Shown one piece after another: positions 229-44,560 of a DNA stretch of 47,838 nt (positions are counted from its first letter, which is position 1; every line of letters begins with the position of its first letter). The DNA comes from Chitinophagaceae bacterium (GTDB taxonomy: Bacteria > Bacteroidota > Bacteroidia > Chitinophagales > Chitinophagaceae). The notes under the pieces were generated by a model, which saw nothing but the letters and a program-made list of their open reading frames with translations, did no database searches and was not told the origin of the DNA. A program made the position numbers and the translations under genes. The DNA lies in assembly GCA_947381435.1 (NCBI GenBank), contig CANCVE010000023.1:1-47838 (forward strand), written 5' to 3'.

Positions 229-428
229 AGCCTCCTAAATATTATTATTAGCCTCCTAAATATTATTTTTAGCCTCCTAAATATTATTTTTAGCCTCCTA
301 AAAGTCATCTCTAGCCTCCTAAAAGTCATCTCTAGCCTCCTAAAAGTTATCTCCAGCCTCCTAAATATTATTTCTAGCCTCCTAAAAGTCATTTCTAGCC
401 TCCTAAAAATCACTTCTAGCCCTGCTAA
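229..428. repeat. 21-nt tandem array 1 (about 9.5 units)
   Basis: Unit starts fall at 229, 250, 271, 292, 313, 334, 355, 376, 397 and 418, an exact 21-nt period. Each unit begins with the constant AGCCTCCTAAA and ends in about ten variable A/T-rich bases; the last unit is degenerate. Because 21 is a multiple of three, both strands are open across the array and would encode heptad peptides (FRRLEMT-like on the minus strand), which I treat as a by-product. The array fills most of the gene-free stretch 68-466 before the sigma factor gene; the rest of that stretch shows nothing recognisable apart from the palindrome at 438-463. Confidence 0.93.
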
Positions 429-437
429 AGGTTGCTA

Positions 438-463
438 CTTTCTTAATATTTATTTTAAGAAAG
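438..463. promoter_or_regulatory. Palindrome immediately before the sigma factor start
   Basis: CTTTCTTAA (438-446) and TTAAGAAAG (455-463) are perfect inverted repeats separated by eight A/T bases, ending three bases before the ATG at 467. It could be an operator for autoregulation or a hairpin that covers the translation start. The function is inferred from position only. Confidence 0.5.
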
Positions 464-466
464 ATT

Positions 467-1066
467 ATGGAAAATGATGGCAAAAGTTATCTTTATCATG
501 TGCCAGCAAATAAATACGACGATATTACAGACGAAGAACTGCTTTCGAACTATCTTTCGGATGGAGAAAGCAAGTGGATTGGATCCTTATTGCAGCGATA
601 TACCCTGCTACTTTTTGGGGTGTGCATGAAGTATTTAAAAGATGAGGCAGCAGCACAAGACGCCGTACAACAGATATTTTTGAAGTCAATAACGGAACTA
701 AAGAAGTACAAGGTCACTTATTTTAAAAGTTGGTTGTATATGGTAGCTAAAAACCATTGTTTATTGTTGCTGCGCAATCATAACCGTACCATAACCATTG
801 AAGATAACCTCTCCATAGAAAATGAGGAAACTGATTATTTTGCCTTACATCACAACGAAAAAACACTAACTGCTATTGAAGAATGTTTGCCATTATTGAA
901 CTCGGAACAGAAAGTATGTATTACTCTTTTTTATTTAGAAAAGAAAAGTTATCAAAACATTTGCGATGCCACAGGATATAGTACTTTGCAGGTGAAGAGT
1001 TACATACAGAATGGAAAGCGTAACCTGAAGATTTTGGTAGAGAAACATTTAAAGCAACAACTATGA
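467..1066 (+). CDS. ECF-type RNA polymerase sigma factor (sigma-70 family)
   Basis: This 199-residue protein has the two-domain layout of ECF sigma factors. Region 2 lies at about residues 40-105 (DEAAAQDAVQQIFLKSI, then the FKSWLYMVAKNHC segment that corresponds to promoter -10 recognition). Region 4 lies at about 138-190, with a helix-turn-helix (SYQNICDATGYSTLQVKSYI) that would read the -35/-33 element. There is no sigma region 3, as expected for ECFs. The stop overlaps the start of the next gene in an ATGA, so the two are translationally coupled and the partner is probably its anti-sigma factor. A 21-nt array and a palindrome lie just upstream. The regulon is unknown. Confidence 0.9.
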   Translation: MENDGKSYLYHVPANKYDDITDEELLSNYLSDGESKWIGSLLQRYTLLLFGVCMKYLKDEAAAQDAVQQIFLKSITELKKYKVTYFKSWLYMVAKNHCLLLLRNHNRTITIEDNLSIENEETDYFALHHNEKTLTAIEECLPLLNSEQKVCITLFYLEKKSYQNICDATGYSTLQVKSYIQNGKRNLKILVEKHLKQQL

Positions 1067-1422
1067 TTAACATCAAAAATATATTTCCGGAGGGAGAAGA
1101 AGAATTTACGGACGATGATTATCTGCATTATATAAATGAGAATCTATCGCCAGAAGAAGCACACCGTTTAGAAAAAGAAATGCTAGAAGATGGATTTGTA
1201 AATGATGCAATGGAAGGTTTATCATCCATCAAAAACAAAGAATCTATTGAGACATCGGTAGAAAATTTAAACAGACAACTCAACAAAATAGTACAAACAA
1301 GGATAGAAAAAAAGCGAAAACGCAAGATACCTTCCAATCAGTGGGCGATTATTGCGGTTGGCATTACCCTTTTTATTGCTATAATTTCATACTATATCAT
1401 TCACTTAAATGGAGCCAATTAA
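1063..1422 (+). CDS. Membrane-anchored anti-sigma-factor-like protein
   Basis: This 119-residue protein has an acidic helical N-terminal part (residues 15-50, including DDDYLHYINENLSPEEAHRLEKEM), a basic stretch at 80-90 and one transmembrane helix at about 94-114 with a very short exterior tail. That is the topology of small Bacteroidota anti-sigma proteins, which hold an ECF sigma at the inner membrane. No HxxxCxxC zinc motif is visible, so it is not a classical ZAS protein. The four-base overlap with the sigma gene and the terminator directly after it make a two-gene operon. The role is inferred from context and topology. Confidence 0.65.
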   Translation: MINIKNIFPEGEEEFTDDDYLHYINENLSPEEAHRLEKEMLEDGFVNDAMEGLSSIKNKESIETSVENLNRQLNKIVQTRIEKKRKRKIPSNQWAIIAVGITLFIAIISYYIIHLNGAN

Positions 1423-1432
1423 TTTTGAAACA

Positions 1433-1502
1433 TAAAACGAGAGGAACGACAATCGTAAGTTAGGAATGCCTAAAACTAGCGATTGTCGTTCCTATCGTTT
1501 TA
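1433..1502. terminator. Bidirectional terminator between convergent genes
   Basis: Arms at about 1433-1455 and 1480-1502 (core GGAACGACAATCG and its complement) pair over some 22 bases with one mismatch, and T-runs follow on the plus strand. The loop contains a smaller stem (TTAGG/CCTAA at 1460-1473). It separates the sigma operon (+) from the glycosyltransferase gene (-). Confidence 0.8.
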
Positions 1503-1547
1503 CGTTTTTTGTTTTATACTTACACCTTAAAACTTAGAACGTACAAC

Positions 1548-2687
1548 TCAGTTAACCAACCCAATAATAGTATCCGCCAATACTTTCCAGCTATACTTTT
1601 GTTTTTCGGTATGCAAATAGGGCAAAAAGTGTTCTTGCCCTATATAGTATAGTTCTTGTATCTTGGCGGCAATAGCTTCAGGATTAGGTTCTGCCACCAA
1701 GCCAACTTTTCCATCGGGCACCAATGACGGCAATCCGCCAACATTAGTAACCAACATGGGTTTCTCGAAGTGATAGGCCAACGGTGTAACACCACTTTGT
1801 GTAGCATTGCGATAAGGCTGAATAACAAAGTCGGCAGCACTAAGGTAAAATCTCACCTCACTATCAGAGATGAAATCAGTTCGCAATATTAGTTGGTCGG
1901 CAATATCTAGCTCTTTAATTAAATCATCATATTGCTGTTTGTCTTCGTAATATTCGCCAGCCACCAATAGTTTGCATCCCACAAACAAGCCTTTCTGCTG
2001 TTGCTCCTTCAATACTTTCATGGCTTGTAACAGCAAGTCGAGTCCTTTATATTTTCTAATAAATCCAAAGAATAAAATAATGTTCTCCTTTTCAGGAATA
2101 CCTAAATGTTTTCTTGCGTCATTACTTGGAATGGCTTCACCAAAATTGTCATACAATGGATGAATGATTTGTTTGGATGGTTTTGTAGTAAATGTTTTTA
2201 AATCGGCCAATACCTTTTCGCTCATGGTAACAAAGGCATCCATTGGCTTAAAGCAGTATTTTGTAAATTGCTTATCTCCCGGTCGCTTCTCGTGAGGAAT
2301 AACATTATCGGCAATGCAAACTAATTTGGTAATGCCATTAGCTTTTGCGCAACGAAGAATTGTGCCCAAACAAGGCCCCATGAAAGGCAACCAATAGCGA
2401 ATAACGATGATGGCGGGTTTTAATTTCCGCAATTCATTGCCCACTAAAAGCCAATTAAAAGGATTAACTGAGTTAATGCAAACTTTAATATTAATATCTG
2501 TGGGCTTCGGCTCCGAAGAATACTGTGTGGTGCCTGGAAACAAAAAGCCAGGATATTGCAATGAGAAGGTGTAAATGGTAGCATCATATCCTTGCTGCTG
2601 AAACTGACGAGCCAAGCGTTCATCAAAAGAAGCCAATCCTCCACGCAAAGGATGCGCTGGACCAATTATAATAACTTTTTGTTTCAT
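1548..2687 (-). CDS. GT4-family glycosyltransferase
   Basis: This 379-residue protein is a GT-B fold enzyme that would transfer a sugar from a nucleotide-sugar donor, probably for a surface polysaccharide. The N-terminus has a nucleotide-fold start followed by the glycine-rich acceptor loop (GPAHPLRGGLASFDERLA, residues 9-26). The linker to the second lobe leads into ILFFGFIRKYKGLDLLLQAM, and the C-terminal donor site contains the family pattern GVTPLAYHFEKPMLVTNVGG followed by VPDGKVGLVAEP. The usual ExxxxxxxE is degenerate here. The start ATG is three bases after the stop of the PIN toxin gene, so the two are probably co-transcribed. The exact sugar cannot be told. Confidence 0.85.
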   Translation of the reverse strand: MKQKVIIIGPAHPLRGGLASFDERLARQFQQQGYDATIYTFSLQYPGFLFPGTTQYSSEPKPTDINIKVCINSVNPFNWLLVGNELRKLKPAIIVIRYWLPFMGPCLGTILRCAKANGITKLVCIADNVIPHEKRPGDKQFTKYCFKPMDAFVTMSEKVLADLKTFTTKPSKQIIHPLYDNFGEAIPSNDARKHLGIPEKENIILFFGFIRKYKGLDLLLQAMKVLKEQQQKGLFVGCKLLVAGEYYEDKQQYDDLIKELDIADQLILRTDFISDSEVRFYLSAADFVIQPYRNATQSGVTPLAYHFEKPMLVTNVGGLPSLVPDGKVGLVAEPNPEAIAAKIQELYYIGQEHFLPYLHTEKQKYSWKVLADTIIGLVN

Positions 2688-2690
2688 TTA

Positions 2691-3101
2691 TTAGTTACTG
2701 GGTGGTATAATTAATTCTAAACCATCAATGTTTATAAAATGCTTGGCATTCATAGTTGCAAAAGGCTCTTTATAATGTAATGCAGTTGCTGCAATACCAA
2801 GATCACGAAAGTCAATTGATTTTCTTTTTAGCTTTAAGGCTCGCTCTATAAGAATGGAAGTAAAAACTAATGGAGAAGTAAAAGGAACAATTACTATATT
2901 AATAAAAAAGTCATCCCAAAAGACTTTTCTTATGGTATCGGCACCTATGTAAACCTCATATTGAGTGATGACAGATACCGAAAACAGTTCGTAGTCTTTT
3001 AATAAGGAATTGAAAAAGGATTTTTCTTTATTGACTTTCCTGTAGAAATCAATTAGCACAGATGAATCCAAGTAAACTAGTCTGTTATCTTCTTTATCCA
3101 C
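2691..3101 (-). CDS. PIN-domain ribonuclease toxin, VapC-like
   Basis: This 136-residue protein fits a single PIN domain, a Mg-dependent RNase fold. Acidic residues sit in the expected places: D12 (YLDSSVLIDFY), E49 (ITQYEVYIG), D97/D100 (SIDFRDLGIAATA), then the conserved FATMNAKHF strand near the C-terminus. The chosen start is a GTG at 3101, because the fold begins only a few residues later (LVYLDSS) and no ATG lies between. The gene overlaps the small upstream ORF by 25 bases, the usual layout for an antitoxin-toxin pair. It lies inside a glycosyltransferase cluster, so it was probably inserted there. Confidence 0.85.
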   Translation of the reverse strand: MDKEDNRLVYLDSSVLIDFYRKVNKEKSFFNSLLKDYELFSVSVITQYEVYIGADTIRKVFWDDFFINIVIVPFTSPLVFTSILIERALKLKRKSIDFRDLGIAATALHYKEPFATMNAKHFINIDGLELIIPPSN

Positions 3102-3241
3102 GGAAATCTCTTTTTATATTGTTCAATTTCTGTTGCCGTCATTACTGGACTATTCAGAACAAATTCCTGAAATACTTTCTGCTTTTTAGTCAATTTCCTC
3201 TTAATACCAGAGGGTTTGAAAATTGTTACGGTTGCTCCCAT
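3077..3241 (-). CDS. Small antitoxin candidate for the PIN toxin
   Basis: An ATG at 3241 opens a 54-residue ORF (starting MGATVTIFKPSGIKRKLTKK) that ends in TAG at 3077-3079, inside the toxin gene in another frame. It is basic and rich in lysine, with a short glutamine/isoleucine-rich helix at the end (MTATEIEQYKKRF), fitting a small DNA-binding or toxin-wrapping antitoxin. No antitoxin family is recognisable by eye. The assignment rests on the size, the overlap and the position directly before a PIN gene. Confidence 0.6.
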   Translation of the reverse strand: MGATVTIFKPSGIKRKLTKKQKVFQEFVLNSPVMTATEIEQYKKRFPWIKKITD

Positions 3242-4840: not shown

Positions 4841-6103
4841 TTAATTCTTATTCCATTTTCCTTTTGTGTAAACGCCCACTACCTTACCCGCCAAAGGAAC
4901 GTTAAAGAAGGCACTATTGGCAGATTTACTTTTGTTAATTTCTTTCGTTAAAGTAGAAATACCCTCTTTTGTAAACAATGTAATGTCGGCAATACCTCCT
5001 ATTTCTATACTATTATTTGATATATTAAAAAGCTTCCTCGCATTATTCCCTAATAAGTCGGCAAGCTTATTTACAGATAAATTATTAAGTAGTTGATTTA
5101 ATACTACAAAACTTGTTTGCAACCCAATCATGCCATTAGCTGCATATTCAAATTCGCATGTTTTGTTATCCCAATTCTGAGGTAAGTGATGGCTAGTTAT
5201 GCAGTCCACAACTCCATTTTCTACAGCATCCCTCAATGCCATCATATCGGTTCTGTTTCTCAGTGGTGGAGTAACCTTCAAGTTAGTATCATAGCTCACC
5301 ATGTCTTCATCACAATAGAATAGATGGTAAGGGGTTACACTACACGAAACTTGCAGCCCTTCGGCTTTTGCAGCAGCAATCAAAGCCACGCTTTCGGCAG
5401 TGGAAACGCCTGTAATGTGTAGTTTACTATTGGTATACCTTAATAAATCAAGATCTCTTTTAATAATTAAAATCTCTGATAAAGCAGGACTTCCTGGTAG
5501 ACCGAGTTGTGTTGATACGATTCCTTCTGTCATCAATCCAAAAGAGCCAATACTTTTATCAACAGGTAATTGAATGATTGTTCCATCGAAAGCAATGATG
5601 TATTGTAGGGCTTTCAATAGTAAGCCAGAAGACTGCACAGGATGTAAACCGTCCGAAAATGCAACTGCACCCGCTTTTTGCATTTCATACATTTCGGCTA
5701 AATCTTTTCCTTCAATATTCTTAGAAACAGCACCAATTGGATAAACATTTATTGGTAATTGTCTTGCTTTCTCTATTACATAACTTACTTGTGGCTTATT
5801 TTGAATGCTAGGCTTTGTATTAGGCACTACAAACACGTGAGAGAACCCTCCTGTCAAGGCTGCAGCGGCTCCTGACTCAATACTTTCTCTGTATTCAAAA
5901 CCTGGATCCGCAAAATCTGTAAATATATCCACCCATCCCTGCGAAACTGCTAGTCCTTCTATTTTCACTGTTTCATCGGCATCTTCCACTATTTCATCTG
6001 CTATTTCTTTGATGTTTCCATCTACTACGAGGATGTCTTTGGTTTGCTCGAAAAAGGTGGAATTTCTATCGGCAATCAATACTTTTTTAATCAGAAGCTT
6101 CAT
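4841..6103 (-). CDS. Dihydroorotase homologue with degenerate metal site (probably non-catalytic)
   Basis: This roughly 420-residue protein has an amidohydrolase TIM-barrel and class I dihydroorotase landmarks: PNTKPS, NLKVTPPLR and the C-terminal ANGMIGLQTS. The metal ligands are mostly gone: the HxH of the usual DxHxH strand reads DIFTDFADPG, the HAED motif reads QLPVDK, the H..H pair reads LHITG, and the catalytic DHAP reads SHHLP. It may be a structural subunit beside an active enzyme, like the PyrC' partner of aspartate transcarbamoylase, or may have a new role. The start is the ATG at 6103; the longer frame begins with TTG. Confidence 0.85.
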   Translation of the reverse strand: MKLLIKKVLIADRNSTFFEQTKDILVVDGNIKEIADEIVEDADETVKIEGLAVSQGWVDIFTDFADPGFEYRESIESGAAAALTGGFSHVFVVPNTKPSIQNKPQVSYVIEKARQLPINVYPIGAVSKNIEGKDLAEMYEMQKAGAVAFSDGLHPVQSSGLLLKALQYIIAFDGTIIQLPVDKSIGSFGLMTEGIVSTQLGLPGSPALSEILIIKRDLDLLRYTNSKLHITGVSTAESVALIAAAKAEGLQVSCSVTPYHLFYCDEDMVSYDTNLKVTPPLRNRTDMMALRDAVENGVVDCITSHHLPQNWDNKTCEFEYAANGMIGLQTSFVVLNQLLNNLSVNKLADLLGNNARKLFNISNNSIEIGGIADITLFTKEGISTLTKEINKSKSANSAFFNVPLAGKVVGVYTKGKWNKN

Positions 6104-6390: not shown

Positions 6391-6640
6391 TTGATGTCAT
6401 ACGTCACGACGTTATTGGTCTAAAATCACTATTTATGTCGTACGAGACGACAACACGAATAAATTGAGCCAAATGGCGTCATACGTCACGACAACACGAG
6501 CAAATTGGGCCAAATGGCTTAGTACATCGCGACAACTTTAATCAATTGAGTCAAATGGCTTAGTACGTCACGACAACATGAGTCATTTGAGCCAATTTAT
6601 GTCATACGTCGCGAGACATGACGTAATTTGGCTCAATTAT
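6391..6640. repeat. 41-nt tandem array 2 (6 units, last one inverted)
   Basis: The motif ACGtcaCGAC recurs at 6401, 6442, 6483, 6524, 6565 and 6606, every spacing exactly 41. Between these lies a second block resembling AATTGAGCCAAATGG. At the right end GAGCC...GTCAT (6589-6605) is answered by ATGAC...GGCTC (6618-6634), so the array closes on an inverted copy that can fold as a hairpin. The array occupies the core of the gene-free stretch 6296-6885; the flanks show nothing further that I recognise. Confidence 0.9.
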
Positions 6641-6911: not shown

Positions 6912-7859
6912 ATGATTCTTCGACGGTTACTATTTTTATTTCTCATTTTATCCTTATGTTCTCAAATTGGGAAAGCCCAACTTACCTACTATACCATTAG
7001 AATAGAATATGATAGTGGCTGGACGTACAAAAACCTAACCCTTATCCCCATTAGATTTAAGCCCAATTTGATTCCTCAGTTTTATTTTCCAGCAAAACTA
7101 ATATCCTTAAAGGAGGCGATGCAACATGGAAAAATTAAGTTCAAAGAGTTCTATTTTGAAAAAGATGCATCCGTAAGGCTTCTTACAATTGAGAATAATA
7201 GTGACGACTTTGTAATGATTGAAAATGGAGAGACCATTAGCGGTGGCAAACAGGATAGAATGATTGCCGAATCTAAAATAATTTATCCTTACCAAGAAGA
7301 TCAGTTTGTAGATGTATTTTGTATTGAACAAAACAGGTGGGACAATAAACCTAAACCCTTTAAATATGCAGGAAGTGCAGATGAAGGGCTTAAGAGGATA
7401 ATGGATTTAACACATCAGCAGCAGTTTATTTGGAAAGAAATTGAAAGGAGGTATTACTCTGCAGGGGCAATAAACAAGACTGCAGCTTACTTGCAAATTC
7501 CAAATACAAAAACTAGCATTGATACGGCATACACTAATTTTTTTACCAACAAAATGAAAGCTAGTGATAGTTTGTTTGCTGGTTTTATTGCCATTACGGA
7601 TACTGCCATATTGGGCGCGGAAGTATTTGCAGCTACAACCCTTACCCTGAAAGGATTTGATGCTATGCTGCAAGGGTGGATTAGCTCGGCAGTAGTAAAT
7701 GGAAAAACTCCTGATATGCCCTATAAAAAACTAAAGTTATTTACTGATGAATTATTTGAGAGCGAGTATAAACAAAAAAACTTTCTTCAAAAGCATGGCA
7801 AAGCCTTTATTTGCGAAAAGAAAGTGTTTCATATAGTAGTACACGGAGGATTGCAGTGA
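6912..7859 (+). CDS. Exported ARPP-1-like (DUF6569) protein
   Basis: This 315-residue protein begins with a clear signal peptide (RRLLFLFLILSLCSQIGKAQ, cleavage after KAQ), so it acts outside the inner membrane. The body carries the marks of the ARPP-1/DUF6569 family: IENGETISGGKQDR (104-116) and the CIEQNRW strand (137-143), which corresponds to the family's C-V-E-x-g-R-W. The molecular function of the family is unknown. The gene stands alone, with its own promoter element and a long inverted repeat behind it. Start chosen at the ATG that opens the signal peptide. Confidence 0.75.
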   Translation: MILRRLLFLFLILSLCSQIGKAQLTYYTIRIEYDSGWTYKNLTLIPIRFKPNLIPQFYFPAKLISLKEAMQHGKIKFKEFYFEKDASVRLLTIENNSDDFVMIENGETISGGKQDRMIAESKIIYPYQEDQFVDVFCIEQNRWDNKPKPFKYAGSADEGLKRIMDLTHQQQFIWKEIERRYYSAGAINKTAAYLQIPNTKTSIDTAYTNFFTNKMKASDSLFAGFIAITDTAILGAEVFAATTLTLKGFDAMLQGWISSAVVNGKTPDMPYKKLKLFTDELFESEYKQKNFLQKHGKAFICEKKVFHIVVHGGLQ

Positions 7860-8016
7860 ACAGTAATCAGTGAACAGTAAACAGTAAATAGTTATCAGTA
7901 ACTAATAAACAGTTAAAAATGACTGTGATTACATTAAAGCTTTACTGTCTGATTAAATGATTATTGTGAACTATTGACTACTCACTGTTTACTGTTCACT
8001 GATAACTGTTCACTTA
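7860..8016. repeat. Inverted mini-repeat cluster, aacagtgAACAGT family
   Basis: Short words such as GAACAGTAATCAGT and AGTAAACAGT are repeated on the left, and their complements (ACTGTTTACTGTTCACTGA and similar) on the right around a central spacer, giving a large imperfect palindrome. It fills the gap between two co-directional genes. Related copies occur at 27904-28047 and 31850-31927. Confidence 0.8.
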
Positions 8017-8939: not shown

Positions 8940-9716
8940 ATGAAATTAATCGACACACATTGTCACCTTTATTCGGAGGAGTTTAAAGACGATATTGATG
9001 CAGTTATTAGACGAGCAAGGGAAGAGGGTGTAGCAAAATTTTATTTGCCTGCTATAGATAGTAGTTGTTTGGATGCAATGCTACAATTGGAGACAGATTA
9101 TCCTAACGAATGTATTGCTATGATGGGTTTGCATCCTTGCTATGTGAAAGAAAATTACAAAGACGAGCTTAAATTGGTGGAAGAGCAATTGGCAAAACGC
9201 TCTTTTGCGGCTGTTGGAGAAATAGGGCTAGACTTTTATTGGGATAAAACATTTACAGAACAACAATATGAGGCATTTGAGCTGCAAATGCTATGGGCAT
9301 TAGATAAAGAACTACCCATAGTAATTCATACCCGTAATGCAATGCAGGAAACCATAAACAGGGTAAAACCATTTGCTGCGAAAGGTCTAAAAGGTATATT
9401 CCATTGTTTTAGTGGCAGTTACGAAAGTGCCAAACAGATTATTGACCTAGATTTTATGTTGGGTATTGGCGGGGTAATCACCTATAAAAATGCAGGGTTG
9501 CCAGAAGCATTGGCAAACATCCCTGTGGAGTATCTGGTTTTGGAAACTGATGCGCCTTATCTAACTCCAGTGCCTTTTAGAGGGAAGAGAAATGAGAGTA
9601 GCTACTTAAAATATGTTGTAGACAAATTGGCCGAAGTAAAAAACATTACTACGGAGGTACTTGCAGAGATTACGTCTAATAATGCAGAAAGATTATTGTG
9701 TCCAATCAATAAATAA
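8940..9716 (+). CDS. tatD: TatD-family metal-dependent DNase
   Basis: This 258-residue TIM-barrel hydrolase has all expected metal ligands: H7 and H9 in DTHCHL, E94 in AVGEIGLDFYW, H130 in IVIHTRN, H155 in FHCFSGS and D204 in ETDAPYLTP. The family acts as a 3'-5' exonuclease and is linked to DNA repair and to D-aminoacyl-tRNA deacylation in some members. No ribosome site is visible before the ATG. The preceding gap 8656-8939 holds no gene that I can support. Confidence 0.92.
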   Translation: MKLIDTHCHLYSEEFKDDIDAVIRRAREEGVAKFYLPAIDSSCLDAMLQLETDYPNECIAMMGLHPCYVKENYKDELKLVEEQLAKRSFAAVGEIGLDFYWDKTFTEQQYEAFELQMLWALDKELPIVIHTRNAMQETINRVKPFAAKGLKGIFHCFSGSYESAKQIIDLDFMLGIGGVITYKNAGLPEALANIPVEYLVLETDAPYLTPVPFRGKRNESSYLKYVVDKLAEVKNITTEVLAEITSNNAERLLCPINK

Positions 9717-9914
9717 AACACTTCTTTTTAATGAAAAATATTGTTACAAAGTTTTATCAATGCCATTCATTGAGCATTCAAACCATTTAACACTAAGCGG
9801 CTAATCTTTTTTAAGCAATTCGGCAAATTTTCGTAATATTTGTACTAGAAAGGTACTATTTGTTTTATTACCACTTTTTCACAGCATAAACTCACTAAGA
9901 AGCAACCCCACTTC

Positions 9915-14604: not shown

Positions 14605-14690
14605 TGGTTAGGTATTAGATAGTAATGGTTAGATAGTAGTTATTATTGGTTGGGTTAAAGTTGTAATTATCAAGTTTTAGGGAATAGGTA

Positions 14691-14730
14691 AAAGAGAGGC
14701 TGCTCCAATTGGGGCAGCCTCTCTTTTTTA
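14691..14730. terminator. Bidirectional rho-independent terminator
   Basis: AAGAGAGGCTGCTCC (14692-14706) pairs with GGGGCAGCCTCTCTT (14711-14725) around a four-base AATT loop, followed by T6. It serves ricT on the plus strand and the convergent gene ending at 14767. Confidence 0.92.
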
Positions 14731-14766
14731 TCTAATATCTACTATCTCATAACTAATATCTATTCA

Positions 14767-15402
14767 CTAGTCTCCCGCCATCTTATTCATGGTAGGCGTC
14801 CACACCAATAAATCTGTATCAAGCCCTTTGTAGGCGGCGGCAAAAGGATAAGTTACACCCGGCGTAAACCCAGCAATGGTAAGGCTTACCCCATTGCTAT
14901 GCCGTTGAAACCATCTGTTTTTATCGGCCGGCGTTGGCCCCAAAGCCACATCCCAAAAGGCAAAAATGATTCCGTGAGTAGAAAATGTTTTTGGTTTATC
15001 GGCGCTAAAATTCATGTATCCAGCTACACTTCCTGTAGCTACTTTAAAGTTCGCAACCTCGCCCATTACTTGGCGGCTACCCTCTTTTTCCATCGGAAAA
15101 CCACTGCTCAAAGCCTTAATTCTATCGCGATTGGCTTGTACATTTACTTGTACCCCCAATACCCTCAAGGCAATTACCAACAAACCCTTCTTCGTGTTTT
15201 TTAAATCCGTGTCTGCTTCATTGCCGTGTGCACATGCCGCCAAGGCAGGATTGTAGGCACCCAATGCGGAAACTACGGCGGTATGCTGTGCAACCACACT
15301 AAAGTTGGTATTAGTAGCATTACAACCTAAAACTACTGCTGCCGCATCTGTTGCTATTGCTTCATCGGTTGAATCTCCAAAATCTATTAAAACTTGATTC
15401 AT
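14767..15402 (-). CDS. Fibronectin-III-like protein of unknown function (LSSGF family), copy A
   Basis: This 211-residue protein has an alpha-helical N-terminal half (about 35-95), a short hinge with IKALSSGFPMEKEGS, and a beta-rich C-terminal domain resembling fibronectin type III (ending AGFTPGVTYPFAAAYKGLDTDLLVWTPTM). No signal peptide is visible. The helical half, hinge and C-terminal pattern recur in the gene at 44758-45432, where the hinge reads NLSGFNVNKQG, so the two are divergent members of one family. An array of 21-nt repeats begins 53 bases upstream of its start. The function is unknown. Confidence 0.7.
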   Translation of the reverse strand: MNQVLIDFGDSTDEAIATDAAAVVLGCNATNTNFSVVAQHTAVVSALGAYNPALAACAHGNEADTDLKNTKKGLLVIALRVLGVQVNVQANRDRIKALSSGFPMEKEGSRQVMGEVANFKVATGSVAGYMNFSADKPKTFSTHGIIFAFWDVALGPTPADKNRWFQRHSNGVSLTIAGFTPGVTYPFAAAYKGLDTDLLVWTPTMNKMAGD

Positions 15403-15455: not shown

Positions 15456-15660
15456 AAGTCTAAACTTTTGCGACAGAAGTCACGACTTTTATCACGGAAG
15501 TTTGAACTGATGCGACGAAAGTTTGAACTTTTGTCGTAAAAGCCTAAACTTATGTGACGGGAGTTTAAACTTACGCCACGAAAGTTTGAACTTTTGCGAT
15601 GGAAGTTTGAACTTATGCGATGTAAGTTTAAACTTATGCGATGAAAGTTTAAACTTTTAT
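15456..15660. repeat. 21-nt tandem array 3 (about 9.8 units)
   Basis: Unit starts are 15456, 15477, 15498, 15519, 15540, 15561, 15582, 15603, 15624 and 15645, exact to the base. The constant part is AAGTTTgAACTT or AAGTTTaAACTT, a perfect 12-base palindrome in several units; the other nine bases vary around wTGcGAyGg. It forms most of the 5' region of the gene starting at 15402. Confidence 0.93.
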
Positions 15661-15663: not shown

Positions 15664-15688
15664 GGGAGGCATACCAAATATGCCTCCC
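15664..15688. promoter_or_regulatory. Hairpin capping array 3
   Basis: GGGAGGCATA (15664-15673) and TATGCCTCCC (15679-15688) pair perfectly around a CCAAA loop, directly at the distal end of the array. No proper T-run follows on either strand, so it is not a standard terminator. The rest of the gene-free stretch to 16041 shows no gene I can support. Confidence 0.55.
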
Positions 15689-16041
15689 TATCTCGATGGT
15701 GGAACGTATAAAACAAGGTGATTAAAGTGGAAAATGCCGGTAGAGAAGGCTTTGTCAGTCGTTTTTGGTAAATGGACTGCCCATTTGAAGGAAGCAACCC
15801 GATAACTAGCAATTGAAAACATGTAAGAAGTATGAGTGATGAAACTTTAAAGATTCCTGCTGCACCAAAGCAACGCCTGTACCCCTTAACCGGATGCAAT
15901 GTAGGGATTGTTGGGGGAAGGGAGAGAAAAGAATAATTAGGGGGATTTATTCTTGGCATATTAATTATATTTACAATCTAAATGGATGTTGGTGAGGAAT
16001 ACTAACATCGGCGAAGGGGTACACAATATTATTTGATAACG

Positions 16042-30900: not shown

Positions 30901-30969
30901 CAATAAAATGTAGGTTCTTCCTTTGGTTATTGTGTTATAATCGCCTTCAAGCGTATACGTTTAGTCGCA

Positions 30970-31158
30970 AAACTTAAAGGTTTCACGGCGAAACTTAAAG
31001 GGTTTGAGACTAAACTTAAAGGTTTTGTGGCGAAGCTTAAAGGTTTTGCCGCATAACTTAAAGGTTTCACGGCGAAACATTAGGGTTTTGAGACAAAGCT
31101 TAAAGGTTTTGTGGCGAAACTTAAAGGTTTCAAGGCAAAGCTTAAAGGTTTTGGCTAA
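30970..31158. repeat. 21-nt tandem array 4 (9 units)
   Basis: Unit starts are 30970, 30991, 31012, 31033, 31054, 31075, 31096, 31117 and 31138. The constant core is AACTTAAAGGTTT (with AAGCTT in alternate units); the remaining eight bases alternate between versions like TGTGGCGA and CACGGCGA. It lies between the convergent truA and ABC ATPase genes and reaches within eight bases of the ATPase stop. It is open on the plus strand as heptads such as SLKVLWR. Confidence 0.93.
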
Positions 31159-31840: not shown

Positions 31841-31849
31841 AAAATTTCA

Positions 31850-31927
31850 GTTATCAGTGACCAGTTATCAGTAAACAGTGAAAAAAGTTTGCACATCTTT
31901 ACTGTTTACTGATAACTGTTCACTGGA
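31850..31927. repeat. Inverted mini-repeat, CAGTTATCAGT family
   Basis: CAGTTATCAGTGACCAGTTATCAGTAAACAGTG on the left (given in parts) is answered by TTTACTGTTTACTGATAACTG on the right, forming an imperfect palindrome in the gap between permease and ATPase genes of one operon. Confidence 0.75.
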
Positions 31928-35981: not shown

Positions 35982-38768
35982 TTACCCCTCCATATTCTGC
36001 CTCAACCATCTTTCTATCTCGTCTAGTGTCATTCCTTTTCTCTTAGCATAATCTTCTACTTGGTCGGGCTGAAGTTTCCCTACACCATAATATTGGCTCT
36101 GAGGATTGGCGAAATACCATCCGCAAACTGAAGAAGCAGGATACATAGCCAAGCTTTCTGTAAGCGTGATACCAATGCTTTCAGTAACATTTAATAAGTC
36201 GAACAACTTATACTTTTCGGTATGATCTGGGCAAGCAGGATAACCCGGTGCCGGACGGATACCTAAGTATTTTTCATGAATTAATTCATCATTAGTTAGA
36301 TGCTCATCGGTAGCATAACCCCAATATTCTTTTCTTGTTTTTAAGTGTAAGCATTCTGCAAAAGCTTCTGCTAATCTATCGGCAAGTGCCTGCAACATAA
36401 TCTTGTTATAGTCATCCAGATTAGCTTCGAAAGCTTTTATGTGCGGCTCGATACCATCGATGGTAACGGCGAAAGCACCCATAAAATCAGTCGTAAGTCG
36501 TAAGTCGTGAGTCGTAAGTTCTGTAGAAGCTCCAAGTGGTTTTATAAAATCAGCGAGTGAGATGTTCGGTTGCCCCGGTGCTTTTTCTATTTGTTGGCGC
36601 AAGAACTCTAAATGGACATACCGTTGACCGTCAACCGTTGACCGTTGTTCCCCTCCATCGGTTATCGGTAAACGGTTAACAATGACGCTGTCCCCCTCGC
36701 TACCAGCTTCCCAGAAACCGATAGTTCCTTTTGCTGTCAACCATTTTTCTGCAATGATTTTGTCTAATAAAGTATTCGCATCATTGTATAGTTTCGTTGC
36801 TTCCTTGCCAACAATCTCATCAGTTAAGATGGCAGGGAAGTTTCCGTGCATTTCCCAAGCAATGAAGAAAGGTTTCCAGTCAATATATTGTCTTAGTTCA
36901 TTCAAATCGAAATCTGCAAACACTTTAGTACCCGTAAACTGAGGTTTTACCGGTTGGAAAGTAGCCCAATCTATGTTTACTTTATTGGCTAAAGCTTTAG
37001 TGTAAGGCAAATAGTTTTTGTGAGATTTCTTATTATCAAAACCGTGTTTCAGTTTCACATACTCGCCATAAGTTTGCTCTAGGAAAGCCGGTTTACTATC
37101 ATTACTCAATAAACTTCCTGCTACAGTTACGCTACGGCTAGCATCCAATACATGTATAACGCCATTGCCATATTCGGGGGCAATCTTTACCGCAGTGTGC
37201 ATACGACTAGTGGTAGCGCCACCAATCAGCAAAGGTTGTTTCATTCCACGACGCTTCATTTCTTTAGCCACATGAACCATTTCATCAAGCGAAGGAGTAA
37301 TTAAACCACTCAATCCAATAATATCTGCCTTATGGTGAATAGCGGCTTCTAGAATTTTATCGGTAGGAACCATTACGCCCAAATCGATAATATCATAACC
37401 ATTACAACCCAAAACTACCCCAACTATGTTCTTGCCTATATCATGTACATCACCTTTCACGGTAGCCAAAAGTATCTTGGCAGCACCAGCACCTTCCTCG
37501 TTAATAGTCCCTGCTGCAATGTGAGCGAGACGACGTTCTTCCTTTTCAGCTTCAATATAAGGAGTGAGAACTGCAACACTTTTCTTCATTACGCGGGCAC
37601 TCTTTACCACTTGAGGCAAGAACATTTTACCCGCACCGAATAAGTCGCCCACAAAGTTCATCCCGTCCATCAAAGGGCCTTCTATCACATCCAAAGGTTT
37701 AGGATATTTCACCCTTGCCTCTTCTGTATCAGCATCAATATATTCAGTAATACCGTTTACCAAAGCATGTTTCAATCTTTCTTCTACAGAAGCATCGCGC
37801 CATTTTTCATCCCTTTCCTGAACCTTTCCCTTTGCTTTAACCGTCTCGGCGAAGGCAATCAGCTTTTCTGTAGCTTCGTTATTATCGTTGTTTCTATTAA
37901 GGATTACATCTTCGCAAAGTTCTTTCAGGCTTGGTTCAATCTCGTCATAAACTACTAACTGACCCGCATTCACGATTCCCATATCCATCCCAGCCTTGAT
38001 GGTATGAAATAAGAAGACAGAATGCATTGTTTCACGTACATGTTCATTGCCCCGGAAAGAGAATGACAGGTTACTAACGCCGCCACTAATTTTTACCAAA
38101 GGATGCCTTTGCTTGATGATGCGTGTAGCTTCAATGAAATCTACACCATAATTATTGTGTTCTTCCAAGCCTGTAGCAATGGCAAAAACGTTAATATCGA
38201 AGATAATGTCTTGAGGATCAAACCCAACTTGCTCGGTTAATATCTTGTAAGCTCTTTCAGAAATTTCTACTTTGCGCTCTAGGGTATCGGCTTGGCCTTT
38301 CTCATCAAAAGCCATTACAATTACAGCAGCACCATACGCTTTACAGATGAAGGCATGTTCAATAAACTTTTCCTCACCCTCTTTCATAGAGATAGAGTTT
38401 ACGATGCAACGCCCCTGAATACATTTCAATCCCGCTTCAATAATCTCGAACTTAGAGCTATCTACCATGATAGGAATCTTGGCAATATCTGGTTCGCTCT
38501 GCAATAGATTAATGAATGTGGTCATGGCTTTTACACCATCCAACAAGGCATCATCCATATTTACATCCAATATCTGCGCACCATTCTCCACTTGTTGGCG
38601 TGCAACAGAAAGGGCTTCTTCGTATTGATTATTCAATATAAGTCTGGCAAACTTCTTACTACCGGTAACGTTGGTACGCTCGCCTACATTGACAAAGTTT
38701 GTCTCAGGACGAATAATTAAAGGCTCTAATCCACTTAATCTTAAAAAAGGTTTTATCGTTGTACTCAT
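35982..38768 (-). CDS. metH: Methionine synthase, pterin-, cobalamin-binding and activation part (split MetH)
   Basis: This 928-residue protein carries the last three modules of cobalamin-dependent methionine synthase. It has the methyltetrahydrofolate-binding barrel ([19 protein letters not shown] onward), the B12 domain with the lower ligand histidine in [27 protein letters not shown], and the AdoMet-reactivation domain ([33 protein letters not shown]). The homocysteine module is encoded separately at 39344. Between B12 and reactivation segments two stretches of repeat sequence are read in frame ([14 protein letters not shown] and [18 protein letters not shown]). Confidence 0.94.
36489..36524. 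repeat. AGTCGTAAGTCGT repeat inside the metH reading frame
   Basis: Four tandem copies of the word AGTCGTA/GAGTCGTAAGT lie in frame and encode [11 protein letters not shown] on the minus strand. The same words form the intergenic palindrome at 45436-45675, so an intergenic element has entered a coding sequence. Confidence 0.75.
36621..36685. repeat. CCGTTGACCGT / GGTTATCGGTAAACGG repeat inside metH
   Basis: CCGTTGACCGTCAACCGTTG on the left and TCGGTTATCGGTAAACGG on the right form an imperfect inverted repeat in frame. It is about 100 bases from the previous insertion and encodes the [18 protein letters not shown] stretch. Confidence 0.65.
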
Positions 38769-38777
38769 TTTATTTTT

Positions 38778-38875
38778 TTAACCACAAGGGACACAAAGTT
38801 TTCACTAAGATCACAAGTTTATTTATTTTACCACAATGTCCACTAAGGATTTCACCAAGGAGACAAAGATTATAA
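38778..38875. repeat. ACCACAAGG-type repeat, left flank of the GxxExxY gene
   Basis: AACCACAAGGGACACAAAG, then CCACAATGTCCACTAAGG and ACCAAGGAGACAAAG, are tandem variants of one phrase directly after the GxxExxY stop and before metH. Confidence 0.7.
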
Positions 38876-38880
38876 TTTAC

Positions 38881-39261
38881 TTATAGATAACCATTTATAA
38901 CACGCTTTACACCATCCTTGAACAATAAAGAATTAAAGTTTATTAATAATCCCAGTTTGCATCTTGACAACTTTAGATAAGTTACAATTTGTGCAAAATG
39001 AATATCTGTTAAAGATTCTACTGCCTTCAACTCAATTATTAATTTATCTTCAACAATTATGTCAACCCTATAACCAACATCTAAGTTTATAGCTTCGTAA
39101 ATTAACGGTAGAACCTTTTGCCTCTCAAACGCAACACCATAATTAAACAGTTCATAGCATAAACATTCTTCGTAAGCACTTTCGAGCAAGCCCGGACCTA
39201 ATGCCCTATGTATTTTAAGTCCACATTCAAACACCACTTTTGCAATCTCATTTTCGGTCAT
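38881..39261 (-). CDS. GxxExxY protein (PD-(D/E)XK-like)
   Basis: This 126-residue protein has the family-defining G24-LL-E27-SA-Y30 in GPGLLESAYEECL, and then a PD-(D/E)XK core: D67 (GYRVDIIVEDK), E77-L-K79 (LIIELKAVE) and Q91. The family is common in environmental bacteria; its function is unknown, and a nuclease-like role is inferred from the fold. It is inserted between the two parts of metH and flanked on both sides by related ACCACAAAGG repeats, which suggests that it travels with them. Confidence 0.9.
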   Translation of the reverse strand: MTENEIAKVVFECGLKIHRALGPGLLESAYEECLCYELFNYGVAFERQKVLPLIYEAINLDVGYRVDIIVEDKLIIELKAVESLTDIHFAQIVTYLKLSRCKLGLLINFNSLLFKDGVKRVINGYL

Positions 39262-39264
39262 TCT

Positions 39265-39342
39265 TTAAGTTTTACAAAGGTTTACACCTCTCATTATACC
39301 CCTAGTGTCCTTTGTGAGAACCTTAGTGACCTTTGTGGTTAA
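39265..39342. repeat. Right flank repeat of the GxxExxY gene
   Basis: TTTACAAAGGTTTACACC and GTGTCCTTTGTGAGAACC, then GTGACCTTTGTGGTTAA, are complements of the left-flank phrases, so the gene lies inside an overall inverted-repeat frame. Confidence 0.65.
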
Positions 39343-39343
39343 G

Positions 39344-40375
39344 CTAAGCCAACTCTGACTCTAGCACAGGCAATCTCCTTGGTTCGATTGTTCTTACGTG
39401 GTCTGCAATGTGTTTGATATGATCAGGTGTGGTGCCGCAGCAACCACCTACTATATTTACCCAACCATTCTGTGCCCACTCCTCAATGAAATGTGCTGTT
39501 TGATGCGGTTGTTCATCATATTCTCCCATTGCATTTGGTAAGCCAGCATTAGGATATGAAGAAGTAAAGCAAGCTGCAATACCACTCAATTCCTCAATGT
39601 GTCCACGCATTTCTTGTGCGCCCAAGGCACAATTCAATCCAATACTTAAAGGATTTGCATGTTTTACAGATATATAAAAAGCCTCAAGAGTTTGTCCAGA
39701 AAGTGTACGTCCACTAGCATCGGTAATAGTGCCGCTAATCATAATTGGCAACTCACCCCCATCCCCTGAAGGGGAGTTTCGGAAGAATTGTTTTATAGCA
39801 AATATGGCTGCTTTTGCATTGAGGGTATCAAAAATTGTTTCTACCAATAATACATCCACGCCACCTTCTACTAAGCCTTTTATTTGCTCGGTGTAAGCTT
39901 CAACTACTTCATCAAAAGTTACAGCACGATAACCCGGATTATTTACATCAGGCGATAGACTCAATGTTTTGTTTAATGGCCCTATTGCACCGGCCACAAA
40001 CTTAGGCTTTCCATCTTCAGGGTGAAGTTCATGGTATCTCTCAATAGCTTTTCTCGCACATTGGGCAGAGGCAACGTTCATTTCATAAGCCAATGACTGC
40101 ATGTCGTAGTCTGCTTGCGCAATAACGGTACTGCTGAAAGTATTGGTTTCAACAATATCGGCACCCGCTTCGAGATACAAAAGATGTATCCCGATGATAA
40201 CTTCCGGTTTTGTAATGCTCAATAAATCATTATTACCCTTTACATCCAAGTGCCAATCCTTAAATCTTTCCCCTCTGTAATCAGCTTCTTCAAGCTTATG
40301 ACGTTGAATCATGGTACCCATTGCACCATCAATTACCAATATCCTTTTTTCTAATTCTTCGTGTATCAAACTCAT
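39344..40375 (-). CDS. metH: Methionine synthase homocysteine-methyltransferase module (split MetH)
   Basis: This 343-residue protein is the N-terminal barrel of MetH, which binds homocysteine through zinc: it has [23 protein letters not shown] at the start, [21 protein letters not shown], the first zinc cysteine in [15 protein letters not shown] and the pair in [19 protein letters not shown]. It must act with the second gene at 35982 to complete the enzyme. Inside the frame, [13 protein letters not shown] is encoded by a CCCCTGAAGGGG-type repeat (39765-39778). Confidence 0.93.
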
Positions 40376-41576: not shown

Positions 41577-41594
41577 TCTAAACTATTTAGGGTG

Positions 41595-41786: not shown

Positions 41787-41787
41787 T

Positions 41788-42408: not shown

Positions 42409-42604
42409 TTATATATCTGCTGCAAAAGTGTGGTTTATTTTCTAGTATAGGAGCAAAAAGGAGAGTATGAATAATTTTTAGTTGTCAAATAAACAGAGGC
42501 CACCCTTTATCAATTATAACTTTTCAATTATCAATTAACCACTAGCCCTACTCCACTCACTTTACCATCACTTGTTTGCACTCGCAAATGATATCTTGCC
42601 ATAT

Positions 42605-43672
42605 TTAACTAATTAAAGGCATTTCAATTTCGATAGCTGTTATAAGGGTAGTAATTTGATTTGCTAAATCATCTACAACTACATCTTCTGTTTTGTCTGT
42701 CAATGGTGTTAATTCAAATAATTTTTCTCTGCTATTTGTTTCACAAACAGCGATATTTAATTTTGTTGCAACTGTTCTGCAATGCCTTCTTAGCTGCTCT
42801 GTCATTATCCATTTAGTCTTATCGCTTACTAAATCATCCTTTATATTTATCCAAAACGGAGTATCTGCATATTTCGCCCACAAATCAAAGTTTAGATTCA
42901 ATGCAACCCCAAATTTACTAATTCTGAAATAACGTGTATAGCCATAGCGTTGAGGTGTTGCATTAAGTCTTGACGTTTCAGCAAGACCACGCTTTTTCAA
43001 TTCGTCAACAACTTTATCAACGAGATCATAGTAGGAGTTGATTCTTTTTGCATATTTGGGTGACAGGTCATCGCTTTGAATTGGAAGAAAGGCATTAGAG
43101 TCAATTGTATCGCACAACCCAATGATTTGGTCTATATCAGAAATTAATAATTGTTCATTATCCTGAACCAAATGGGTTTTGACGGTTTGTAATATTTCAT
43201 TCCATGTTTTAACAGTCAAGTGTATATTATTCTCAAACACGATGGAATGATTATCGCTATTTATTTTGCAATTTAGTTGTTCGGCGATTACACGTTTTAA
43301 TAACTCATCAAAAACTGGTCTTACTCTAAGTGTGGGACAAATAAATATTAAAGCAGAATTTTTTCGAAGCCGCATCAAATACGAAATAGGTTGATTCTCT
43401 GTCAGTGATGCCCAAAATTTCGCTTCGAGTATTAATACTTCTACTCCATTATTGTCATAGCCAGAAATATCTGGTCTTTCTAGCTTCTCGCCAATATTTT
43501 GTGTAACGTAACTTAAATCATCGAAATCTAAATTACAATCGCTCTTAATAATCCTATTTATTCCAAGCCTTGCAGACTTAGATCTTTGTAAAATGTAAGC
43601 TAATCCCTCTGAGGCTATGTCTTCTTGTGAACCTTTAATTCTTGAATAGAATTGTCCAAGTAATGATTGCAT
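42605..43672 (-). CDS. Putative PD-(D/E)XK nuclease, possible defence gene
   Basis: This 355-residue protein has a nuclease core near the N-terminus: E22 (DIASEGLAYILQR), D68 (ERPDISGYDNNG), E83-A-K85 (LILEAKFWA) and Q94, the full set for this superfamily. The middle is helical (DLSPKYAKRINSYYDLVDKVVDELKKRG) and the C-terminal half has a mixed fold with RYFRISKFGVALNLNFDLWAKYAD. No named restriction family is recognised. The upstream small gene ends directly before its ATG, so they form a unit. A two-gene defence or phage-restricting cassette is plausible but not shown. Confidence 0.65.
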   Translation of the reverse strand: MQSLLGQFYSRIKGSQEDIASEGLAYILQRSKSARLGINRIIKSDCNLDFDDLSYVTQNIGEKLERPDISGYDNNGVEVLILEAKFWASLTENQPISYLMRLRKNSALIFICPTLRVRPVFDELLKRVIAEQLNCKINSDNHSIVFENNIHLTVKTWNEILQTVKTHLVQDNEQLLISDIDQIIGLCDTIDSNAFLPIQSDDLSPKYAKRINSYYDLVDKVVDELKKRGLAETSRLNATPQRYGYTRYFRISKFGVALNLNFDLWAKYADTPFWINIKDDLVSDKTKWIMTEQLRRHCRTVATKLNIAVCETNSREKLFELTPLTDKTEDVVVDDLANQITTLITAIEIEMPLIS

Positions 43673-44002
43673 TTATTTGGTTTTATTTTCGGGTAATGTT
43701 CCATTTTTCAATCGCTCTTCATACGAGTTTTCTTTTTTACAACGATTGATGATGATGGTTTCTTCAATTGGTGCTCCCATTGTCCAATATACCATTCCAT
43801 CATGATCAAAATATGTAATTGACATTTTATAAAATGAACCGACATAACCAAAAGCTCTGATATGGTTTACAGATTCTACAAAAAGTTTGTCATCTACCTT
43901 ACTTCTCACTATGTATTCATGTGGCCATTCTGGCATTGTCTTCGCATAAGTCCACTTTACTGAGTTTATAAATTCCATAAGAATATCGTTAAATTGTTGC
44001 AT
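43673..44002 (-). CDS. Small unknown protein paired with the PD-(D/E)XK gene
   Basis: This 109-residue protein has no signal peptide. Conserved-looking segments are KTMPEWPHEYIVRS, a glycine-aromatic strand YVGSFYKMSITYFDHDGMVYWTMGAPIEETIIINR, and a charged tail. The stop TAA abuts the ATG of the downstream nuclease, so translation is coupled. I do not recognise its family. It could be a partner, immunity protein or specificity subunit. Confidence 0.6.
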   Translation of the reverse strand: MQQFNDILMEFINSVKWTYAKTMPEWPHEYIVRSKVDDKLFVESVNHIRAFGYVGSFYKMSITYFDHDGMVYWTMGAPIEETIIINRCKKENSYEERLKNGTLPENKTK

Positions 44003-44346
44003 ATAGAGGAAGGTAATAATTTAAAGTGCAACATACAAATTATTTGCAAAATATGTTAGATGTTTATTGTCCTCAAGATAAAGCCACCTATCCTTCAATT
44101 CTCAAAATCCTAGTTCTGACAAATTTCTTTATCTGAACAAGGATTAGGATGATTGAAGGATTTGCAAAATTAGTACGCTCAGTACTCCTACCCATCTTTT
44201 AATCCTATAAATCCTGATTCAGACAAGCTAAGATTTGCTTACAGCATCACATTCAAAAGCCGTTTCTTATCGGATAAAGGATGAGTAAAAAGGCACAATT
44301 GCTCTCCCAAACCACCCATCTACCTTCAAAAAGTAAAACATTGCCA
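44003..44346. repeat. Gene-free stretch with the ATCCTTCAATC...TCCTAATCC repeat
   Basis: ATCCTTCAATTCTCAAAATCC (44092 onward, in part) and GGATTAGGATGATTGAAGGAT (44142-44162) form a 29-base imperfect inverted repeat, and AATCCTGATTCAGACAAG at 44209-44226 repeats its inner half. This is the GGATTAAAGGATT-type element known from Bacteroidota and other genomes. No gene is supported between 44003 and 44757. Confidence 0.6.
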
Positions 44347-44560
44347 AGTTTCATCAAAAGATGGTCGTGTTTTTCATAAACTCACCCATGTTTCGAGCAA
44401 ACATGGCAGTGTTTTTAGAAAACTCGGTAATTTTTGGAGCAAACATGGTCAACTTTAACAAAAACTCACCCATGTTTCTTATAAACACTGCCAAGTTTCT
44501 TAAAAAGATGGTCATGTTTTACAAAAACTTGGCAGTGTTTTGTAAAAACATGACCATCTT
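44347..44560. repeat. 21-nt tandem array 5 (about 10 units) ending in a palindrome
   Basis: Unit starts are 44347, 44368, 44389, 44410, 44431, 44452, 44473, 44494, 44515 and 44536. Constant elements are TGTTT at the start and AAA near base 11; the second half varies among CACCCA, ATGGCAG, GATGGTCA. Units occur in both orientations, and the last two form a near-perfect inverted pair, 44505-44526 against 44538-44560 (outer arms AAGATGGTCATG and CATGACCATCTT). It lies 197 bases before the fibronectin-III-like gene at 44758. Confidence 0.92.

Follow-up and report, generated by a model that had tools for sequence, protein, structure and literature searches.

Intergenic arrays with a two-helical-turn period and locus-specific sequence in a Chitinophagaceae genome, and the protein family found beside them

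The stretch of 47,838 nucleotides (nt) studied here, called the window below, is the whole of contig C23 in a 4.88-Mb draft genome (231 contigs) of a Chitinophagaceae bacterium, and it carries five intergenic tandem arrays that share a period of 21 nt or, in one case, 41 nt, while each has a unit sequence of its own. Matches of its proteins likewise put the genome in or close to Chitinophagaceae. Arrays of this kind recur through the genome: their periods lie at two, four or six helical turns, many of their units are imperfect dyads, and they are found upstream of most genes of FAM, a protein family of about 210-235 amino acids (aa) with members beside two of the five arrays. An initial annotation of the window had proposed that spacing and helical face are constrained in the arrays and that sequence is not; the dyads, the link with FAM and the restriction to few lineages are additions to that proposal. 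Our preferred reading, to which we give a probability of roughly 0.4, is that the arrays may act at the DNA level as helically phased platforms for a sequence-tolerant dimeric protein linked with FAM.

Period, sequence and symmetry of the arrays

Arrays were detected with Tandem Repeats Finder and with an autocorrelation scan at lags 5-100, and genes were called as the longest non-overlapping open reading frames (ORFs), their starts and the distances to them being approximate. All five arrays of the initial annotation were recovered by both methods far above chance, with peak autocorrelation z of 8.6-14.9 as against at most 5.2 in three first-order Markov copies of the window, and the exact register described for the 21-nt arrays holds across 9-10 units. 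The arrays, the two FAM genes and the leader next to array 2 are the following.

225-434: array 1, period 21, about 9.5 units, core TTTAG-CCTC-CTAAA, peak z 14.9
6391-6640: array 5, some 6 units of period 41 (about 2 x 20.5), z 11.7, between tRNA-Pro and an ARPP-1-domain gene
14767-15402, minus strand: FAM gene 1, 211 aa, without Pfam match, its start 54 nt from array 2, which lies upstream
15456-15658: array 2, period 21 with 10 units, z 11.7, core AAGTTTRAACTT and a spacer resembling TATGCGACG
15664-15910, minus strand: leader common to several FAM loci, with a GGGAGGC...GCCTCCC hairpin end directly before array 2 (coordinates converted from an alignment)
30958-31154: array 3, 9 units of 21 nt with stronger lags 42/84, CAAAAC...GTTTTG, z 13.3
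44341-44560: array 4, exact 21-nt register (21/42) kept by about 10 units that have diverged strongly, TTT...AAA dyads, z 8.6
44758-45432, plus strand: FAM gene 2, 224 aa, without Pfam match, array 4 about 200 nt upstream

The scan of this genome covered 20 stretches (397,553 bases) and then 41 sequences (845,391 bases, window included). The larger set holds 65 intergenic arrays with a period of at least 15 nt, and 61 of these have periods of 20-22, 40-44 or 60-66 nt, i.e. two, four or six helical turns: 21 (38 arrays), 22 (3), 41 (6), 42 (11), and 43, 64 and 66 (one each). Outside these classes, one array each was found at 58, 71, 81 and 97 nt. Unit sequences fall into 50 families among 70 arrays (this genome and the congeneric genome G125), the largest family having five members, so that the combination of a common period with differing sequences, first described in the window, extends to most arrays in the scanned part of the genome; intergenic periods spread evenly over other lengths, or arrays confined to genes, were not seen. 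A spacer, GCGACAA, is present in 14 of 90 arrays (0.9 expected) and is not general. Congeneric genomes also carry arrays (16 in 193 kb of G044, 13 in 294 kb of G125), and a wider sample of the family (98 loci, 1,365,063 bases) yielded 9 intergenic arrays at the same 15-nt minimum, with periods of 16, 18, 20, 21, 25, 29, 74, 82 and 87 nt. The arrays are thus restricted to few lineages.

Two origins are excluded by the periods of 20, 22, 41, 43, 62 and 64 nt that occur elsewhere. These break the reading frame, and therefore neither a coding origin nor a shared peptide is tenable, ORFs running through arrays 1 and 3 because 21 is a multiple of 3. Nor are they multiples of 7, which rules out derivation from heptads (21 = 3 x 7); the heptad arrays of this genome, of which there are 10, therefore form a separate class.

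Register is kept with little error. Exact spacing is found in 551 of 564 successive unit spacings (71 arrays), i.e. 2.3% are off register, and 12 of the 13 exceptions deviate by one or two bases, while adjacent unit pairs (n = 532) differ at 3190 sites. As our detector uses exact lags and favours arrays free of insertions and deletions (indels), a simulation was run with the same detector to allow for the bias; it gave an off-register share of 6.7% at an indel:substitution ratio of 0.02 and of 23% at 0.1. Spacing is therefore kept by selection or by homogenisation, and the data fit both.

Orthologous loci give a second view of turnover. Of 80 orthologous gene pairs, 3 have an upstream array in both species, 11 in one species only (a single gap underlies two of these entries, and one gene is counted against both species) and 66 in neither. 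At the three shared loci the array has stayed in place and its core has changed; the period, which the initial annotation expected to remain at 21, is the same at two of them and is 41 versus 20 nt at the third, the array 5 locus. At a trpC-like locus, where the proteins are 90% identical, the flanks can be aligned on either side and the period is 21 nt in each species, with core GTTAACCAAATG versus AAGTTCCAACTT and the spacer TGCGACA common to both. Similarly, the orthologues of FAM gene 1 have arrays of the same period with core AAGTTTAAACTT versus AAATGAACATTT. Where one species only carries an array, the extra length of its gap often exceeds that of the array itself (e.g. 67 vs 315, 109 vs 468 and 101 vs 466 nt), and no clean empty site was found at orthologous gaps, which differ beyond the array. 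Arrays were also considered as synteny breakpoints, but gene order relative to G044 and G125 is interrupted at many points.

Many units consist of an imperfect palindrome of about 14 bp and a spacer (e.g. AAGTT-NN-AACTT, AAAAGA-NN-TCTTTT or GGAAC-AC-GTTCC). With permuted columns as the null, a significant dyad at 5% is present in 34 of the 61 arrays of this genome and in 5 of the 11 FAM arrays of three further genomes; within the window, where a short dyad is visible by eye in the units, arrays 1, 2 and 4 pass this test and arrays 3 and 5 fail it (11 of 100 shuffles each). The division of units into a constant and a drifting half, described earlier for arrays 1, 3 and 4, suits the first two of these and describes array 4 less well, as there TTT/AAA flank a changing inner sequence. 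Some units of array 4 occur as inverted copies, and 12-mers that recur inverted within their own array total 877, where column permutation gives 43.5; the effect is strongest in 26 of 90 arrays.

The two arms covary. At the dyad axis 909 of 1963 pair cells are Watson-Crick, against 788.5 expected, an excess that kinship among units may inflate; it is positive at eight inner positions, including those beside the axis, and about zero at the ninth and tenth. Arrays of period 21 or 42 have an excess of 0.076 at this axis (1413 cells), whereas 41 shifted axes with comparable cell numbers average -0.005 (s.d. 0.017) and reach at most 0.016. Covariation and mismatch counts are from arrays with a dyad z of at least 1.5 (37 of 55 of period 21/42; 13 of 23 and 16 of 23 oriented arrays). 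Pairing in oriented arrays peaks three to seven bases from the axis, which suggests half-sites about one helical turn apart.

Arrays occupy gaps between many kinds of genes. For the 55 of 61 that could be placed, 29 gaps are tandem, 20 divergent and 6 convergent, and control gaps of at least 250 nt (97, 48 and 14, respectively) have the same tendency, so an orientation-dependent role for arrays in general can be discarded. Independence of gene orientation, a feature of nucleoid docking, is found here with FAM loci as the exception. FAM-free arrays fill about a third of the long intergenic gaps in FAM-rich lineages. Within arrays the Bacteroidota promoter element TAnnTTTG occurs a single time in 22.5 kb, whereas the intervals separating arrays from genes have 34 occurrences in 18.7 kb and the stretches beyond have 16 in 19.8 kb (none in 4.5 kb, 4 in 4.0 kb and 3 in 5.5 kb, respectively, at FAM loci, where numbers are small); arrays therefore tend to lie upstream of promoters.

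The initial annotation had also offered a curved-DNA element as the basis of the phasing, and this version is not supported: A/T autocorrelation at lags 10 and 11 (-0.033 and -0.031; 87 arrays) resembles that of neighbouring lags, and AA/TT/TA autocorrelation at lag 11 is 0.003 +/- 0.019 in the same number of arrays, so that the 10-11-nt rhythm of curved DNA is missing. Its core, constrained spacing with free sequence, agrees with the periods and with the three orthologous loci.

The FAM family and its upstream arrays

Arrays 2 and 4 adjoin members of a single family, as profile searches begun with either gene converge on the same 48 proteins. The alignment suggests that the N-terminal part is helical, and 3 of 31 members have a weak fibronectin-III-like (fn3) match in the C-terminal part (best E 0.005), apart from which Pfam, NCBIfam and PHROG gave no convincing match and no Rep or initiator match.

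A two-turn array lies at most 700 nt upstream of 33 of 44 FAM genes in seven genomes, and none was found downstream (within about 360 nt) of any of the 44. By comparison, where other genes have a gap of at least 250 nt upstream, an array is present there in 112 of 367 cases (Fisher p 1.6e-8, a value that treats paralogues as independent, which they are not). Genes with an upstream array and FAM copies (fragments counted) are distributed as follows.

G000: array at 11 of 12 FAM genes; 27 copies
G044: 10 of 11; 21 copies
G125: 1 of 3; 17 copies
G042: 2 of 2; 6 copies
G073: 4 of 7; 14 copies
G019: 5 of 8; 15 copies
G004: 0 of 1; 1 copy
Ten other genomes: 0 copies

Upstream of the G004 gene there is a period-21 signal (z 6.5) inside a stretch called as an ORF. 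The six genomes with 6-27 copies all bear arrays, at 3.1-8.3 per 100 kb, and the eleven genomes with no or one copy had no array in 242,563 bases (nine of them represented by at most 20 kb each). Stretches of G044, G125, G042 and G073 were partly picked by synteny or FAM. G019 was sampled because of FAM, following one known array at a FAM locus, and gave 5 arrays in ten contigs taken by number (160,527 bases), two of which hold FAM pieces. Further FAM-centred loci were picked by protein similarity and not by arrays.

Among 18 genomes reached via named loci, FAM is present in three: the genome of L150 (1 copy), Ginsengibacter hankyongi (6) and Niastella vici (8). L150 is the only one of 80 named loci with a 21-nt array. 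Of the 12 FAM loci covered in these three genomes, 11 are preceded by a two-turn array, at a distance above 700 nt for L302 and L295, and L304 lacks one upstream; other stretches of the two named species (L103, L109) carry no two-turn array. By eye, the N. vici paralogues at L295, L300, L302 and L304 share a palindrome like CTTTATTGGCCAATAAAG and further sequence upstream of FAM. Across the phylum, FAM was found in at least 10 of 296 genomes (nine candidates scored per genome), in 6 over most of the profile. Five FAM loci from four genomes, three in other Bacteroidota families, have arrays in 4 of 5 cases, and at the fifth (L306) the 21/42/63 signal is weak (z 5.7). The family thus occurs in few genomes, as a rule together with an array.

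To what extent the sequence of an array follows that of its FAM protein can be judged from shared 8-mers (47 loci). Arrays whose FAM proteins are at most 60% identical share 1.1-2.0 of them on average; for the ten pairs in the 60-75% range the mean is 6.3, or 3.1 if one pair with 35 is left out, and 7 of these ten share three or more, vs 74 of 386 pairs at 20-30%. Array sequence appears to track FAM similarity weakly, and the few or absent shared 8-mers at high FAM identity make FAM an unlikely ordinary sequence-specific binder of its own array.

Other features of the window concern the surroundings of the arrays and a different repeat class. Array 1 precedes a sigma-70-family gene (467-1066, plus strand) by about 30 nt, no FAM gene adjoins it within the contig, and related arrays are present elsewhere in the genome. 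Array 3 is located in a convergent gap between a truA-like gene and an ABC-transporter ATPase gene, also without adjoining FAM gene, and a related array was found in G044 (truA, trpC and methionine synthase are names that we take to fit the proteins). About two dozen truA-like matches in genomes of the family lie on the minus strand at most 1.6 kb from contig base 1, with the contig ending just downstream. Heptads are found in the immediate vicinity of FAM gene 2.

45441-45669: heptad (7-nt) repeats in opposite orientations, flanking a terminator-like hairpin, directly 3' of FAM gene 2

Inverted pairs of 7/14-nt heptads are also located at 7854-8014, 31848-31925 and 14605-14762, the last again with a terminator-like hairpin within it, and G044 has related heptads. 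Heptad-like repeats at 36489-36519 and 36620-36678 lie inside the reading frame 35982-38768, which is methionine-synthase-like; this protein (35982-40375) appears as an ORF of 928 aa and another of 343 aa, separated by a third of 126 aa (38881-39261). A stretch of about 125 nt at about 47573-47702 has some thirty interspersed relatives in G125, and another Chitinophagaceae genome (L107) carries long intergenic arrays of period 8 and period 14 at 4877-5198 and 9184-9833.

Proposed element and competing explanations

In the reading that we prefer, an array would be a double-stranded-DNA element of about ten imperfect 14-bp dyads, each made of two half-sites of about 5 bp around a looser centre and placed two helical turns apart, so that all would face the same side; symmetry and spacing would be kept, and sequence would not. 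The basic locus would comprise the array, a leader or promoter region and the FAM gene. A dimeric protein of little sequence demand may bind, or polymerise along, the array from one face, and the nucleoprotein patch formed upstream of promoters could both act on FAM expression and be a local chromosome-organising or insulating site; docking of a nucleoid protein, as first suggested, is a possible role. FAM or a partner of FAM would be the first candidate for the array protein, since no other gene family was found linked to arrays. A wider proposal, which we put forward tentatively and consider rather doubtful, is that FAM and the arrays form an undescribed Bacteroidota module whose protein acts via spacing and symmetry, FAM or its partner making, maintaining or reading arrays in trans; this would fill FAM-rich genomes with FAM-free arrays and leave genomes lacking FAM nearly devoid of them. 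If the preferred reading is true, a DNA element would be selected for its geometry while its sequence turns over faster than the protein, and such elements would escape motif searches and alignments. FAM, to which no function is assigned, would gain a concrete partner, and the system would be suited to the study of helical phasing in bacterial promoters and chromosomes.

Several observations speak against a dimer-binding platform tied to FAM. No significant dyad was detected by column permutation in 27 of the 61 arrays of this genome or in 6 of the 11 FAM arrays of three further genomes, and in a mixed-period covariation test two shifted axes (43 and 162 cells) exceed the dyad-axis fraction. 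A whole FAM gene stands beside only 5 of the 61 arrays, and FAM-free G107 has a 42-nt array near a truA-like gene (L054). The arrays of L195 and L215, whose FAM proteins are 87% identical within one genome, share zero 8-mers. FAM itself has no recognisable DNA-binding domain, the weak fn3 match being all that was obtained, and a structure model of two sequences had a mean predicted local distance difference test score (pLDDT) of 32.5, was unusable and was not used. Finally, A-C mismatches exceed G-U mismatches 110 to 54 on the sense strand of FAM arrays, perhaps because of a few related arrays.

The main rival, a real possibility though not a probable one, is that the arrays are mutational or selfish minisatellites devoid of function, made and homogenised by slippage or template switching at quasi-palindromes, perhaps in a process gauged by a bound protein of about 21 bp, with FAM loci merely harbouring or spreading them. 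Such a process would account for the concerted change of array sequence at fixed places, for the 11 of 80 orthologous pairs in which a single species has the array and the gaps differ in length, for inverted unit copies, for some 50 sequence families among 70 arrays and for lineage restriction. However, it does not alone explain why arrays lie upstream, and not downstream, of FAM in several families, and it leaves the low indel share of diverged units unexplained unless homogenisation is fast.

We think it improbable that the arrays are mobile cassettes resembling miniature inverted-repeat transposable elements (MITEs), of the BrickBuilt or 464/PgRS type, with FAM as cargo. Porphyromonas gingivalis, the host of these elements, belongs to the same phylum and has similar periods; the leader with the GGGAGGC hairpin is common to several FAM loci of the genus and to one FAM-free array, and FAM pieces lie beside arrays at L219 and L223. 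Terminal inverted repeats are nevertheless not general (mean 10.71 in 89 flank pairs vs 10.21 by chance): those of at least 15 nt span the array in 6 of 89 flank pairs, a small excess over the 1.1% given by chance, and are lacking in the other 83. A MITE-type leader and tail in all copies is absent, the flanks of most arrays being unrelated, and the strongest of 52 hits in a flank-to-flank BLAST were mostly FAM loci, orthologues or one paralogue pair. With one FAM protein as the query, no match was obtained in phage, plasmid and viral-contig collections.

That each FAM paralogue binds its own array as a sequence-specific operator is very unlikely, although the layout of gene and upstream array is iteron-like, the units are dyadic and sharing of three or more 8-mers is commoner at 60-75% identity than at 20-30%. 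This last effect shrinks once the pair of 35 is set aside, part of the sharing resides in the spacer and not in the core, and the L195 and L215 arrays have nothing in common. Least likely of all is an RNA element, in which a transcribed leader of tandem hairpins would control FAM: the position 5' of FAM (median 124 nt), the hairpin-forming units and the few TAnnTTTG motifs between array and FAM start would suit it, but the sense strand has no excess of G-U over A-C (73 vs 72 for the 13 arrays of tandem genes and 54 vs 110 for the 16 FAM arrays), which speaks against RNA hairpins, 6 of 55 arrays are in convergent gaps, and an Rfam gathering search of the window, the one sequence searched, returned tRNA only. 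This missing G-U preference and the promoter-like motif between array and gene in general point to a DNA rather than an RNA element.

Comparison with known repeats

The iterons and partition arrays of plasmids are direct repeats of about 20-22 bp, or two turns, that precede the gene of the protein binding them, iterons being Rep-specific sites. The FAM loci likewise have an array of two-turn direct repeats upstream of a gene; unlike in iterons, FAM matches no Rep family and the array sequence follows FAM weakly. Heptameric intergenic repeats are exemplified by the short tandemly repeated repetitive (STRR) sequences of cyanobacteria.

Heptameric repeats (PMC4692102) are, like our arrays, intergenic and tandem, and a heptad class is also present in this genome; the two-turn arrays differ in including periods of 20, 22, 41, 43, 62 and 64 nt, which are not multiples of 7, as opposed to 7/14. 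Repetitive extragenic palindromes and bacterial interspersed mosaic elements (REP/BIME) are families of fixed sequence with GTAG/CGTC tags and with REP-associated tyrosine transposases (RAYTs) (PMC3733652). They resemble the arrays as intergenic palindromic repeats, whereas no high-copy fixed palindrome exists here (50 families in 70 arrays). The Y1 transposase domain (PF01797) is present in 14 of 16 genomes, with and without arrays, and absent in array-bearing G073, and its copy number does not follow the presence of arrays.

In the tandem repeats of archaeal Borgs the units are identical copies and vary in length, and about half of the Borg arrays lie inside genes (PMC9879509). Many independent arrays of unrelated sequence, fast turnover and genome specificity are common to both, but the arrays described here have diverged two-turn units, are intergenic and are often dyadic.

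Closest in layout among known arrays are BrickBuilt (23 nt) and 464/PgRS (41 nt), tandem arrays of P. gingivalis; BrickBuilt is present in 19 copies, with one unit sequence per element family, in a MITE with small inverted-repeat ends (PMC4596501). These too are intergenic, belong to Bacteroidota and have periods near two or four turns, and BrickBuilt also has a leader beside the array. By contrast, our arrays differ in sequence from locus to locus, are without general terminal repeats and are tied to a gene family. Literature searches, which reached few subscription journals, found no description of a module of FAM and array. As tandem repeats alone the arrays are minisatellites; the new part is the module of a gene with a sequence-free array.

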